Shown here: positions 4,726-10,116 of the stretch, one piece after another | How positions within the stretch are numbered: the stretch's first letter is position 1 | Layout of the letters: each line of letters opens with the position of its first letter | Source of the DNA: Sulfurovum sp. AR | GTDB taxonomy: Bacteria; Campylobacterota; Campylobacteria; Campylobacterales; Sulfurovaceae | DNA: 64,000 bases | Direction of reading: 5' to 3' | Assembly (NCBI RefSeq): GCF_000296775.1 | Contig: NZ_AJLE01000001.1 | Span: 62,001-126,000, forward strand | Position numbers and translations under genes: made by a program | The notes under the pieces: generated by a model | Database searches by the model: none | Told to the model about the DNA's origin: nothing | Seen by the model: only the letters and a program-made list of their open reading frames with translations

Positions 4726-4893
4726 TCATTTTTTATCTCTAGGCGGTATCAGTCTATTATCTTGACCGATGTGTTTTCTATATTCCAATTCTTTTGGATC
4801 TCTTCGCATAATGTGAAAGAACATAAATACATACCCACCTACGACTATAATCAGTACTACGAGACAGAATATAATGATTTTCCAAAGCTCCAT
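4726..4893 (-). CDS. Small single-span membrane protein (55 aa), unknown
   Basis: A short gene with a strong ribosome binding site (AAAGGAGT, 5 bases before the ATG). The product starts M-E-L-W-K, has one hydrophobic segment (about residues 5-27), then a charged tail ending P-P-R-D-K-K. It lies 24 bases downstream of the cytochrome-like gene on the same strand, so the two probably form an operon divergent from the YeeE/YedE genes. It resembles no family I recognise. The strong RBS, codon use and conserved-looking topology make it likely real. Confidence 0.68.
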   Translation of the reverse strand: MELWKIIIFCLVVLIIVVGGYVFMFFHIMRRDPKELEYRKHIGQDNRLIPPRDKK

Positions 4894-4917
4894 ACGTCAC
4901 TCCTTTGTGATTCACTT

Positions 4918-5247
4918 TTAATCATTACATCCATTAGGTGGTACACCATCTTTTGCATATTTCACTGCATAGGCATAAATCTCTTTCCACCACTCTTCTT
5001 TGATCGTTTCTATTGCAAGGTTTGGACAGATATTTTTTGCTTCCTGCGGAAACTTACCAGTTTCATAGATCTCTTCCCACTCTGCCTGTAAATGGTTTCT
5101 AGCAAACATCACACCTGAAAATTTACACTTTTTATAGAAGTGTTTCTTATAGAGTCGTTGTCCTTTTTTTACACCTGCCATAGAATTTGTTGGTATAGAC
5201 ATCGATATGAGCAGCGAAAGTGCTACAGCTCCGATTACTTTTTTCAT
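4918..5247 (-). CDS. Exported cytochrome c-like protein lacking the haem motif
   Basis: A 109-residue protein with a Sec signal peptide (about 1-24, ending S-M-A) and a mature part with cysteines at 41, 74 and 107. It aligns, with at most one gap, to the c-type cytochrome at 54920-55273: Cys41, Ala49, Trp57, Glu62, Thr63, Gly64 and Lys65 match. However, the haem-binding CTSCH of that protein corresponds to Y-K-K-C-K here. It therefore probably keeps the fold but not covalent haem. The three cysteines could carry disulfide or sulfur chemistry. Divergent from the YeeE/YedE pair across shared operator repeats. Confidence 0.8.
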   Translation of the reverse strand: MKKVIGAVALSLLISMSIPTNSMAGVKKGQRLYKKHFYKKCKFSGVMFARNHLQAEWEEIYETGKFPQEAKNICPNLAIETIKEEWWKEIYAYAVKYAKDGVPPNGCND

Positions 5248-5287
5248 ATATTTTCTCCTTGATTGGTTTTAACAAAAGTATATATTA

Positions 5288-5314
5288 AAAACGTTAAGTT
5301 AAGCTTAACGTTTT
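5288..5314. promoter_or_regulatory. Dyad operator 1 in divergent sulfur-locus promoter
   Basis: AACGTTAAG-N5-CTTAACGTT is a perfect inverted repeat at 5290-5312; it extends to 11-bp arms at 5288-5314. It sits beside a TATACT-like -10 box (5278-5283, minus strand) of the cytochrome-like gene. A second copy lies 58 bases away. This is typical of a dimeric winged-helix repressor such as ArsR or MarR type; the regulator is not encoded next to it. Confidence 0.65.
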
Positions 5315-5347
5315 AAATTCTATATAAGCAATCTCTGCTTATAATAA

Positions 5348-5370
5348 AACGTTAAGTAAGACTTAACATT
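5348..5370. promoter_or_regulatory. Dyad operator 2 in divergent sulfur-locus promoter
   Basis: AACGTTAAG-N5-CTTAACATT repeats operator 1 with a single mismatch and the same 5-base spacer. It lies directly before a TATATAG sequence that could be the -10 box of the YeeE/YedE operon. Each of the two divergent promoters therefore has its own operator copy. Confidence 0.62.
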
Positions 5371-5393
5371 ATATAGATCTAAATAAAGGATAA

Positions 5394-5909
5394 ATGATGC
5401 CTCGTTCAATACCTTGGTGGCTTGGTGGTCTTTTAATGGCTTTACTATTTTATTACACTTTCTCTACCTGGGGTGCTAATCGTCCCATTGGTGCATCAAC
5501 CGGTATGTCATATTTTGCCAATTTGATCTTTGATCTAGATACAGAGCAGTATGAATATGCTGCGATCATAGAGAAATCCGGTGCATGGGAAGCCGTCATG
5601 CTCATCGGTGTATTTTTTGGAGGACTTTTTATGTCTATAGTTGTTACCAAAACATTTCATCTAAGTTATATTCCTACACTTTGGAAAGAAAGAAAAAACA
5701 CTTCGATTCCTTCTCGTATGGTTTGGAGCTTTATTGCCGGATTTCTTTTGATATTTGGAGCGAGATTGGCCGGAGGTTGTAATGCAGGACATATCTTATC
5801 TGGCGGTAGTCAACTGGCTGTTAGTGGTATAATATTTGCTGTAGTCGCATTAGGTACTGGGATGATCACCGGTAGATTTTTTTATAAAAAAGGAAAAAGT
5901 GATGATTGA
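5394..5909 (+). CDS. YeeE/YedE family sulfur transporter, first half-protein
   Basis: A 171-residue membrane protein of the YeeE/YedE (DUF395) family, whose characterised members import thiosulfate. It has about four or five membrane segments and the conserved motif GGCNAGHILSG (about 129-139), containing the key cysteine. It is half the length of full YeeE proteins, and the following gene encodes the other half. AAGGA (5386-5390) serves either the ATG at 5394 or the one at 5397. The stop overlaps the start of the second half. Operator repeats lie just upstream. Confidence 0.88.
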   Translation: MMPRSIPWWLGGLLMALLFYYTFSTWGANRPIGASTGMSYFANLIFDLDTEQYEYAAIIEKSGAWEAVMLIGVFFGGLFMSIVVTKTFHLSYIPTLWKERKNTSIPSRMVWSFIAGFLLIFGARLAGGCNAGHILSGGSQLAVSGIIFAVVALGTGMITGRFFYKKGKSDD

Positions 5910-6504
5910 TGATATCATTAAAATGTTCGATGTGGTATCAGGTCAAGAACATGGATCTATTGTAAAGGTGCTGCTTATTGGGTTTGCTTTTGGGGCTATT
6001 ATCTTATATTCACGTCTCGACAAATTTGAAAAGATGGCCGGTTTTATGATATTTGAGGATACGCTTGTCCCTAGAATGGCTATGACCACAGTAGCACTAT
6101 CAAGTGTAGGGTTTTACTTTCTTGTCGAATCAGGTTATGCAACGTATAATATTAAACCGACGATGCTAGGTGGTCTTATCATCGGTGGAATCCTCTTTGG
6201 GATAGGTTTGGTTATTTTAGGTAAATGTCCATCAGCATTTCTTGTTTCAGTTTCTGAAGGGCGTCTTGATGCATTGGTAGGTGTGATCGGCGGGATGTTC
6301 GGTGGGTATGTTTTTACGATCGGGTATCCCTATATACAGCAAATCTTAGGGCCTGATCTGGGTAAAATCAGTGTACCGGATTTTTTTACAGAACATAGTC
6401 TGCTTATTGTATTCACGCTAAGTGGCATTTTACTGACCATTGCATTTTTGCTACCGACCATAGAGTACGAAGACCCCGCTGATATAAATGAAAAAAATAA
6501 ATAA
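5902..6504 (+). CDS. YeeE/YedE family sulfur transporter, second half-protein
   Basis: A 200-residue membrane protein of the same DUF395 family, with about five or six membrane segments and a cysteine motif GKCPSAF in place of the GGC motif of its partner. The ATG at 5902 lies 7 bases after AAGGA; a GTG at 5899 is an alternative. It overlaps the first half gene by 8 bases. Split YeeE pairs of this kind are expected to assemble into one transporter of thiosulfate or another sulfur species; the substrate is inferred. Confidence 0.88.
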   Translation: MIDDIIKMFDVVSGQEHGSIVKVLLIGFAFGAIILYSRLDKFEKMAGFMIFEDTLVPRMAMTTVALSSVGFYFLVESGYATYNIKPTMLGGLIIGGILFGIGLVILGKCPSAFLVSVSEGRLDALVGVIGGMFGGYVFTIGYPYIQQILGPDLGKISVPDFFTEHSLLIVFTLSGILLTIAFLLPTIEYEDPADINEKNK

Positions 6505-6514
6505 TAGGAGAAGT

Positions 6515-6967
6515 ATGATCATGAAAAAGTATATATTTTTAATCGTAGGTTTAGTGAGTTTGATGCAGGCACAAGAGTACAAGTCCGTTTTTGACTGTAG
6601 TTCAGATAATGCCCGCTTTGTGATGTCACGTATGAATTTAATAGAAAGAACCATGGGTATGATCGAACAAAATGGTGACAAGGCTGACTTTGCCATTACA
6701 CTGCATGGAGGATGTGTTCCCATGGTCTCAAATGTGTATGATGAAATAGTACCTGATGAGGATATGCCTTATATAAAAATGGCACAGGAGACCATTACAC
6801 GATTGGCTCAAAAGAAAAAGGTGAAGATCATCGTCTGTGCCATGTCCTTGAATGCAAATGCGATTGACGAGAAAGAGATTTTGCCGTTTATTCAAATATC
6901 TAAAAATAGTTTTATAGATACGATCGGTTTACAAAATAAGGGCTATGCACTGATGACATTTAAGTAA
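6515..6967 (+). CDS. Exported DsrE-like protein
   Basis: A 150-residue protein with a short Sec signal peptide (to about residue 17, L-M-Q-A-Q) followed by a DsrE/DsrF-like fold. Typical features are Asn/Arg-rich helix segments, the GGC motif in the middle and a C-x-M-S-L-N-A segment near the end. Cytoplasmic DsrE proteins pass sulfane sulfur on cysteines; exported versions are less understood. The start follows AGGAG; an ATG at 6521 is also possible. Third gene of the sulfur operon, 10 bases after the second YeeE half. Confidence 0.75.
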   Translation: MIMKKYIFLIVGLVSLMQAQEYKSVFDCSSDNARFVMSRMNLIERTMGMIEQNGDKADFAITLHGGCVPMVSNVYDEIVPDEDMPYIKMAQETITRLAQKKKVKIIVCAMSLNANAIDEKEILPFIQISKNSFIDTIGLQNKGYALMTFK

Positions 6968-8245: not shown

Positions 8246-8836
8246 TTATCCACCAAAGAAACCGCCGGTACGGCTTGAAGTACTTTTACTACCGAAAAAA
8301 CCGCTTCTCTTAGCACTTCTGTTTTTAGCTGCGTCAAAACTCTTTTGACTTCTTGTATAGGTAGAGGGAGATTTGTATCCTGCTTTTCTGTTGTTTTGGT
8401 AGTTTTGGTTACCAAAAAGTTTGGAACCTATCCATGAACCGATGACTGCTCCAGCCATACTGGATAGAAGTATTTCTCCCAGACCCATACCACCTTGCTG
8501 GGACATCTGAGGATTTTGCTCTTTGGTCAGGTTGGAGGTTCCATTGTCGATCTTGGCTGACTCTTCTGCTACAAGTGCATCCATTTCGGGTTTGGTCAAT
8601 ACACGTTCGGTTCCATCTAGTTGTTTCAGTACGATACGTGTCTCTTCCGCGGGAAACTCATCTTTGATCTTGTATTTTCCCGGTGCAGTCTCTTCTATAA
8701 TGACGAATGCATTTTGTGCTTTAGCTTCCTCCTGCTGTTGCTGGTTATTGCTAAAGCAACCTGTTACACCAGTCGCTAAAAGCGTACCAAGACCAGTAGC
8801 AGTTGCTATGGTTGAAAGTTTTCTTAAATGTTTCAT
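8246..8836 (-). CDS. UPF0323-type lipoprotein with glycine-rich C-terminus
   Basis: A 196-residue lipoprotein: signal peptide with a lipobox-like sequence (G-V-T-G-C, Cys27), then a Gln-rich stretch, a small conserved domain, a Gly/Ala segment (about 118-140, GEILLSSMAGAVIGS) and a Ser/Arg/Gly-rich tail. The tail has two G-F-F-G units and ends in Gly-Gly. It resembles the UPF0323 lipoprotein of Campylobacter/Helicobacter, also found next to the same ligase. The function is unknown. The C-terminal glycine may be a substrate of the adjacent ligase; that is my inference. Confidence 0.85.
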   Translation of the reverse strand: MKHLRKLSTIATATGLGTLLATGVTGCFSNNQQQQEEAKAQNAFVIIEETAPGKYKIKDEFPAEETRIVLKQLDGTERVLTKPEMDALVAEESAKIDNGTSNLTKEQNPQMSQQGGMGLGEILLSSMAGAVIGSWIGSKLFGNQNYQNNRKAGYKSPSTYTRSQKSFDAAKNRSAKRSGFFGSKSTSSRTGGFFGG

Positions 8837-8915
8837 AGGGTATCCATAATTATGTTTTGGAGAATCATATCAAAATATGATTAATAGAAAGGAGGAAAAA
8901 ATGTTAGGAAAGGTT

Positions 8916-8941
8916 AAAACAGAGAAGGAAGAGTTTCTCTG
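8916..8941 (-). terminator. Terminator of the ftsA-ftsZ transcript
   Basis: On the minus strand, CAGAGAA and TTCTCTG form a 7-bp stem with an 8-base loop, followed by TTTT, about 30 bases past the ftsZ stop codon. This fits a Rho-independent terminator. Confidence 0.6.
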
Positions 8942-8970
8942 CTTTAAAGCATAAAAGAGGGTAGGACTAT

Positions 8971-10116
8971 TTAGTCCATCTGCTTTCTAAGAAATGTAGG
9001 TACATCCAAGATGTCTTCATTATCACCGTTGTATCCACCTACAACCATTTTACTTCTTACCGTATTGATATCACAAGTGTTGGCACTTAACAAAGTTTTT
9101 TGTTTTGTGACGGTTGGTTCAGGTACAGCATTTTTATCTTCAAATCCTGTAGCAACGATAGTGATCTTCACTTCATCAATAGCCATGTTCTCATTGGTTG
9201 TGGTACCAAAGATCACAGATGCATCTTCATCTGCACTCTCTTCAACAATACTCATCGCTTCACCGATCTCCATGATAGGATAATCAGGGTGGATGTCAAA
9301 GTGTACAAGTACACCCATCGCACCATCGATAGAGATATTATCAAGCAGCGGAGACTCGATCGCAGCTTTTGCTGCATCATAGGCTGCATTCGTTCCTGTG
9401 CTGTATCCTGCACCCATAAGAGCAAGACCTCTATGACTCATCACCGTTTTAACATCGGCAAAGTCAAGGTTGATATCATTTTCCCCATGCGAAAGAATCA
9501 CTTTAGAGATACCACCTACGGCTTGAGCAAGAATATCATCTACCATTCTAAAGCTCTCTTTGATACCAAGGTTCTTCTCAACGATGGAAAGAAGTTTTTC
9601 ATTCGGTACGACAATGATCGAATCACTCTCTCTTTTAAGCTCTTCCAAACCTTCTTTTGCAAGCTTTGTTCTTTTTCTACCTTCAAATTTAAAAGGGCTG
9701 GTTACAATAGAAACAGTCAGTGCACCTACTTCTTTTGCAGCCTGTGCAATGATCGGTGCAGCACCTGTACCTGTACCTCCGCCAAGACCAGCAGAGATAA
9801 AGACGATATCAGAACCCTCAAGCGTCTTTTTGATATCTTCAAAGCTTTCAAGTGCAGCTTCTCTACCTTTCTCCGGAAGCATCCCTGCACCTAGTCCTCT
9901 TGTTGCATTGATACCCAATTGCATTTTGTATGGTGCCAAAGAACTGTCCAGTGCCTGTGCATCTGTATTGGCAACGATCAGATCGATCGAGTTGATCCCC
10001 TCACTGATCATGTGATTGATCATGTTACCACCGCCTCCACCGACGCCGATAGCTTTGATTTTCGCTCCATTTGTATGACATTTTGTTTCCACTATGTCTA
10101 TTTCAAACTCTTCCAT
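8971..10116 (-). CDS. ftsZ: Cell division protein FtsZ
   Basis: Tubulin-like GTPase that forms the division ring. The 381-residue protein has the G-rich nucleotide-binding start (VGGGGGN near 25-31), the tubulin signature GGGTGTG at 112-118, and the T7-loop region. The C-terminal linker is short (about 40 residues) and ends in a conserved peptide, V-P-T-F-L-R-K-Q, the docking site for FtsA. It lies just downstream of ftsA on the same strand and a hairpin terminator follows. Confidence 0.98.
   Translation of the reverse strand: MEEFEIDIVETKCHTNGAKIKAIGVGGGGGNMINHMISEGINSIDLIVANTDAQALDSSLAPYKMQLGINATRGLGAGMLPEKGREAALESFEDIKKTLEGSDIVFISAGLGGGTGTGAAPIIAQAAKEVGALTVSIVTSPFKFEGRKRTKLAKEGLEELKRESDSIIVVPNEKLLSIVEKNLGIKESFRMVDDILAQAVGGISKVILSHGENDINLDFADVKTVMSHRGLALMGAGYSTGTNAAYDAAKAAIESPLLDNISIDGAMGVLVHFDIHPDYPIMEIGEAMSIVEESADEDASVIFGTTTNENMAIDEVKITIVATGFEDKNAVPEPTVTKQKTLLSANTCDINTVRSKMVVGGYNGDNEDILDVPTFLRKQMD

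Follow-up and report, generated by a model that had tools for sequence, protein, structure and literature searches.

Thiol-switched repressors of operons encoding a split YeeE transporter are known (PMC7315123, PMC12423496, PMC11582611), with PmpB representing the N-terminal half and PmpA the C-terminal half of YeeE (PMC11582611). The systems of Serratia sp. ATCC 39006 (PigS with pmp and blhA) and Acinetobacter (BigR with yeeE-yedE-pdo2) resemble the locus analysed here in placing a split YeeE under a cysteine-based repressor, and the Serratia PigS system also shares its divergent transcripts. However, PigS and BigR belong to the ArsR family, BigR having two sensing cysteines, whereas the regulator identified here is a member of the MerR superfamily with a single one, and the persulfide dioxygenase of those systems is replaced here by AhpD, an exported DsrE, a thioredoxin-like protein and the small protein CYTL. 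The SoxR/SoxT1A-SoxT1B system of Hyphomicrobium denitrificans combines YeeE-family sulfur import with a sulfane-sulfur-responsive repressor and periplasmic thioredoxins, a combination that the present system would match; it differs in its full-length YeeE, ArsR repressor and sox/shdr linkage, none of which was recognised in the recurring operon described below. Among MerR proteins, NmlR and AdhR share with our regulator, encoded on contig C9, the MerR fold, a conserved cysteine (essential in AdhR) and a CMD-family gene in the AdhR regulon, but AdhR up-regulates an alcohol dehydrogenase, the position of its cysteine differs and the promoter geometry found here is not that of canonical MerR regulators. 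SCO5550 (2dg6) and FtsR are, like the C9 regulator, long MerR proteins with a C-terminal domain, but differ from it in lineage and targets. The best reading of these comparisons is that the C9 regulator system would be functionally parallel to the ArsR-type PigS, BigR and SoxR systems.

The window, a stretch of 64,000 nucleotides from the genome of Sulfurovum sp. AR, contains a divergent locus; its features are given below, and the regulator gene, located elsewhere in the genome, is listed with them.

4726-4893, minus strand: SMP55, 55-residue single-helix membrane protein (open reading frame), gene 2 of the leftward transcript
4918-5247, minus strand: CYTL, 109-residue exported haem-less cytochrome-like protein (open reading frame)
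5290-5312, no strand: operator 1, exact dyad at the CYTL promoter, kept in relatives
5317-5322, minus strand: predicted -10 box TAGAAT of the CYTL transcript, 4 nt upstream of operator 1
5340-5345, plus strand: predicted -10 box TATAAT of the YeeE transcript, 2 nt upstream of operator 2
5348-5370, no strand: operator 2, dyad with one mismatch at the YeeE promoter (dyad search)
5394-5909, plus strand: YeeA, C-terminal half of a YeeE/YedE transporter, PmpA-like (PF04143, profile positions 175-309)
5899-6504, plus strand: YeeB, N-terminal half of a YeeE/YedE transporter, PmpB-like (PF04143, profile positions 11-149)
6515-6967, plus strand: exported DsrE-family protein (PF02635, E = 5.6e-13)
contig C9, 46567-47241, outside the window: MerR-family regulator, 225 residues (PF13411 profile)

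Open reading frames and profile searches bore out the gene content that an earlier note had read from this DNA, namely a split YeeE, an exported DsrE, a haem-less protein and a 55-residue protein. YeeA and YeeB match complementary halves of the Sulf_transp profile (PF04143; E = 6e-16 and 2e-19, respectively), with possible alternative starts at 5397 instead of 5394 and at 5902 instead of 5899. Their scores against the TsuA equivalog were 36.8 and 44.7 bits versus a cut-off of 400, and import of thiosulfate or sulfane sulfur by YeeAB would be a candidate function only. The DsrE-family reading frame opens at 6488 and encodes 159 residues, the start at 6515 being preferred on account of a ribosome site and a signal peptide; its product scored 49.5 bits against PF02635 (gathering threshold, 22.7 bits) and had no sequence relative in the PDB at E 0.01. 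Profile searches returned no family match for SMP55 or for S65, a 65-residue protein encoded after the AhpD-like gene described below.

The dyads, 23 bp each, occupy one divergent promoter apiece, and none such appeared in 100 dinucleotide shuffles of the window, upholding the twin operators proposed earlier. The dyad itself stands, but its gap, formerly written as N5, is not free: sites upstream of the MerR gene across orthologs follow the consensus AAYGTWAAGT-N3-ACTTWACRTT. At the CYTL promoter, TATATA at 5321-5326 is an alternative -10 box. The whole genome (2.13 Mb) contains just three dyads at up to 3 mismatches, and a degenerate pattern returned the same three. The third (C9:47296-47318) lies outside the window, between the MerR gene and a divergent AhpD/CMD-like gene, which is followed downstream by the genes for S65 and for an exported 277-residue thioredoxin-domain protein. 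The regulator carries an N-terminal MerR winged helix-turn-helix domain (PF13411, 59.5 versus 21.6 bits); of the NCBIfam profiles, FtsR matched it partially and NmlR weakly. The earlier prediction of a regulator encoded elsewhere with the dyad in its own promoter was thus correct in location and wrong in type: the one gene whose own promoter region bears the dyad belongs to the MerR family, ruling out an ArsR/MarR regulator, and the protein has a MerR fold with one invariant cysteine rather than an ArsR fold with two conserved cysteines. No published description of this MerR regulator or gene set was found in the literature covered, to which most subscription journals do not belong.

Among the 175 genomes of the family, a MerR ortholog (at least 58% identity) is present in 25 and the dyad (up to 2 mismatches) in 20; 19 of these 20 also encode the ortholog (p = 3e-19), and the twentieth contributes one weak match. 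In nearly all ortholog loci of the family, a site within 4 mismatches adjoins the MerR gene. Of the tested ortholog promoters, drawn from Sulfurovum, Sulfurimonas and Sulfuricurvum, 51/60 carry the dyad at up to 4 mismatches, compared with 0/2,400 shuffles, and the distance from the dyad to the MerR start codon is 47-49 nt in 47/62 cases. A scan of GTDB genomes yielded 80 loci, and 64 of them (L129-L192) proved to be orthologs; these bear the labels Sulfurovum, Sulfurimonas, Sulfuricurvum or unclassified Campylobacterota. One of the orthologous loci, L178, is that of the cultured Sulfurimonas indica NW8N. Of the 25 family genomes that have the MerR gene, 22 encode a DsrE ortholog (at least 50% identity), versus 4 of the 150 others (Fisher test, p = 6e-21), although the four genomes in which a DsrE ortholog (56-60%) occurs without the regulator count against our main reading. 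The check on relatives suggested earlier thereby recovered both the gene set and the operator across the three genera, and we regard the link between regulator, operator and regulon as very likely.

Two sets of homologs were rejected as parts of this system. A paralogous MerR group (~30% identity, L193-L208) lacks both Cys180 and the dyad, the best sites in its promoters having 5-10 mismatches, and other YeeAB pairs in the family (~55% identity) have no dyad. Genes of this paralogous group, which also occurs in Haemophilus and Actinobacillus, in most cases stand before one that encodes a ~1,150-residue membrane protein, a putative MFS/acyltransferase fusion. The Sulfurimonas contig JALSLQ010000013.1 (L147 and L182) harbours two copies of the MerR-YeeA module.

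Comparison of relatives also clarifies the history of the locus. Two relatives, G137 and G068, have the MerR gene within the sulfur locus itself, where yeeA and CYTL flank it and a dyad separates it from either neighbour (YeeA-YeeB-AhpD leftward, dyad, MerR rightward, dyad, CYTL); DsrE follows AhpD in G137, and the G068 contig ends at that point. This arrangement is the probable ancestral layout. Most other Sulfurovum carriers have the same gene set without YeeAB, and in the subclade of the window (G000, G138, G098, G090 and G091) this set is split between two locations, both of which carry a dyad. What the window holds is a displaced half of a regulon; the MerR gene of that regulon sits elsewhere in the same genome. 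An independent divergent locus is ruled out by this comparison: what had been taken for a locus with operators of its own is a fragment of a wider regulon, while the proposed co-regulation of its genes through the common dyad is strongly supported. The close relatives G090 and G091 have kept the dyad and are missing YeeAB; in G091, the sequence ahead of dsrE (L094:8692-8800) still includes half of operator 2 and an apparent 3' end of yeeB, so that the transporter has probably been lost there and the CYTL operator retained. Among the relatives compared, SMP55 adjoins CYTL only in the subclade of the window (G138, G098, G090 and G091). Separately, an ArsM-like two-domain methyltransferase gene adjoins SMP55 in G098 and G091 (L089:6636-8006 and L094:6674-8047), the L094 protein scoring 205 bits against NF041537, below the cut-off, and dsrE is split into two reading-frame fragments in G137:C22 (L131:5801-6249).

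Across the 64 ortholog loci, the most common member of the divergent operons is AhpD (38 loci), followed by the exported DsrE (28), the thioredoxin-like protein or its companion (18), a 268-residue peptide-deformylase-like protein (17) and S65 (11). YeeAB, present in 9-10 loci, is an optional part; the earlier idea of an uptake system is too narrow for a regulon in which AhpD, DsrE and the thioredoxin-like protein recur. The gene set agrees with sulfur handling through periplasmic carriers, and its main recurring products keep invariant cysteines; as to the substrate, the presence together of YeeE, DsrE, thioredoxin and AhpD suggests chemistry on sulfane sulfur or thiols. In AhpD, E67, C79, C82 and H86 are invariant among 49 sequences and form the pattern E-x11-C-x2-C-x3-H, which we take to be the AhpD/CMD active-site motif (TIGR00778, 45.5 versus 27.8 bits). 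Likewise invariant are C37, C76 and C117 of DsrE (numbering of the 159-residue reading frame), C129 of YeeA (15/15) and C110 of YeeB (13/13); the thioredoxin CXXC is conserved at 75% in an alignment that also takes in the companion family. No persulfide dioxygenase, rhodanese, TusA or sqr was recognised among the recurring operon genes, which counts against the sulfane-sulfur reading, as does the lack of YeeAB in most of the regulons. The peptide-deformylase-like protein (family F3 in L135-L192, for example L183:6481-7287, minus strand; PF01327, E = 6e-28), encoded mostly in loci of the Sulfurimonas/Sulfuricurvum type, has a hydrophobic C-terminal region and, because the HExxH metal motif is found in 0/17 members (one of them a short fragment), looks like a repurposed pseudoenzyme.

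CYTL retains C41, C74 and C107 in 19/19 aligned sequences, and CXXCH, the c-type haem signature, is found neither in the window protein nor in the listed orthologs. The label 'cytochrome-like' finds weak backing: CYTL has no match among Pfam or PDB sequences, but the solved folds nearest to its model are mostly cytochromes c, at low significance (Foldseek E of at least 2.4, Z of at most 5.5). A former cytochrome c is a plausible identity for the modelled protein. The same genome encodes two tandem CYTL paralogs (48% and 39%; L209:8337-8660 and 8778-9095, corresponding to G000:C10:19336-20076), flanked by a two-component system on one side and by small CXXCH proteins on the other, and having no dyad.

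The feature of the regulator that bears on its signal is Cys180, which is kept in 62/62 regulon MerRs, is the sole cysteine in 40 and is missing in 5/5 aligned paralogs. In the predicted structure (mean pLDDT 85), this residue lies at the end of a long C-terminal helix (156-181). The model matched MerR structures, the best full-length PDB match being SCO5550 (2dg6; E = 2.5e-4 over 214 columns), with a low TM-score to such long MerR proteins (0.43-0.45). ArsR-type sulfur sensors use a two-cysteine bridge, and the one conserved cysteine here is a point against a sulfane-sulfur reading; even so, gene content and conservation incline us slightly towards reactive sulfur as the signal. The main rival retains the regulator and regulon but assumes an electrophile (formaldehyde or methylglyoxal) or a peroxide as the signal, as for NmlR/AdhR, with DsrE and YeeE serving general thiol repair. 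It draws on Bacillus subtilis AdhR, a MerR protein that needs cysteine 52 and controls the carboxymuconolactone decarboxylase gene yraC (PMC4776306). The commonest operon member here is AhpD, the regulator matches the NmlR profile, if weakly, and AhpD-like and MerR genes are also paired in aldehyde responses. However, the invariant cysteine of NmlR/AdhR is at 52-54, near the DNA-binding domain, whereas the sole invariant cysteine here is in the C-terminal region; moreover, no alcohol dehydrogenase or esterase was recognised among the recurring genes, and YeeE and DsrE are sulfur families. We consider an electrophile or peroxide signal unlikely.

The promoters bear on the sign of regulation. 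A TATAAT-like box (5/6 matching positions or better; 56 perfect) ends 0-6 nt upstream of the dyad in 69/75 of the target promoters, compared with 16/75 in a control window, so that the dyad would cover the predicted start site. Just downstream of the dyad, a 5/6 match is found in 22/75 and a perfect one in none; in 5/75, the start codon lies within 12 nt of the dyad, leaving no room for a downstream -10 box. In the MerR gene's own promoter, ~13 nt separate the dyad from the conserved TGnTATAAT-like box that lies beyond it, and the dyad hence covers the -35 region. Canonical MerR activators bind a dyad in the 19-20 bp spacer between the -35 and -10 boxes (PMC9909328), an arrangement different from the one seen here. 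The target promoters, as judged from predicted -10 boxes, show repressor geometry, and the MerR protein probably represses its targets. Activation through start-site binding or unusual DNA bending would accord with DNA distortion as the activation route of most studied MerR proteins (PMC9909328), but the upstream position of the -10 boxes and the start codons close to the dyad make it quite unlikely.

A metal(loid) response, in which a metal-sensing MerR protein would control cysteine proteins that bind or detoxify a thiophilic metal(loid), could be read from the superfamily of the regulator and from the ArsM-like methyltransferase beside the locus in G098 and G091, the former also having an apparent ArsR gene and a MerT-like gene. 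Yet the regulator mostly has a single cysteine, and the methyltransferase lies outside the dyad-bearing transcripts and occurs only in two close relatives; we find this explanation improbable. That the dyads belong to another regulator, with the MerR gene merely a target, is very improbable given that the dyad tracks the MerR gene over 175 genomes and three genera and lies directly upstream of it in most ortholog loci.

We consider it reasonably likely, judging from the sequences, that a thiol-sensing MerR-superfamily repressor controls sulfane-sulfur/thiol handling and that the window holds the displaced half of its regulon. The shared operator, its unique pairing with the regulator, the promoter geometry, the conserved gene set and the conserved cysteines can be read from the sequences. 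That the regulator represses, that sulfur is its signal, which way the transporter works and what reaction each protein carries out we infer, and the scheme would run as follows. A dimeric regulator would bind the consensus AAYGTWAAGT-N3-ACTTWACRTT. At the CYTL-SMP55, YeeAB-DsrE and AhpD-S65-Trx transcripts it would sit on the start sites and hold transcription down; in the ancestral layout it would also sit on the -35 region of its own promoter. Reactive (sulfane) sulfur or a related thiol-active sulfur compound would modify Cys180, upon which the regulator would leave the DNA. The induced proteins would then process the sulfur compound by cysteine chemistry: CYTL, DsrE and the thioredoxin-like protein may carry or reduce sulfur in the periplasm, YeeAB may move it through the inner membrane and AhpD may work on thiols in the cytoplasm.

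The activation and uptake of zero-valent or other reduced sulfur by Sulfurovum, Sulfurimonas and Sulfuricurvum are poorly understood (PMC10045233). We tentatively propose that the C9 protein could be the first sensor of reactive sulfane sulfur from the MerR superfamily. It would be a repressor with one cysteine, common among Campylobacterota that oxidise sulfur, and would control a sulfur relay from periplasm to cytoplasm made up of the haem-less cytochrome-like protein, DsrE, the thioredoxin-like protein, the split YeeE and AhpD. The analysis yields a candidate sensor, its DNA site, a defined list of targets and a single cysteine to mutate. If the proposal is true, a regulator superfamily would be added to those known in sulfur sensing, and several uncharacterised exported proteins would fall into one pathway.
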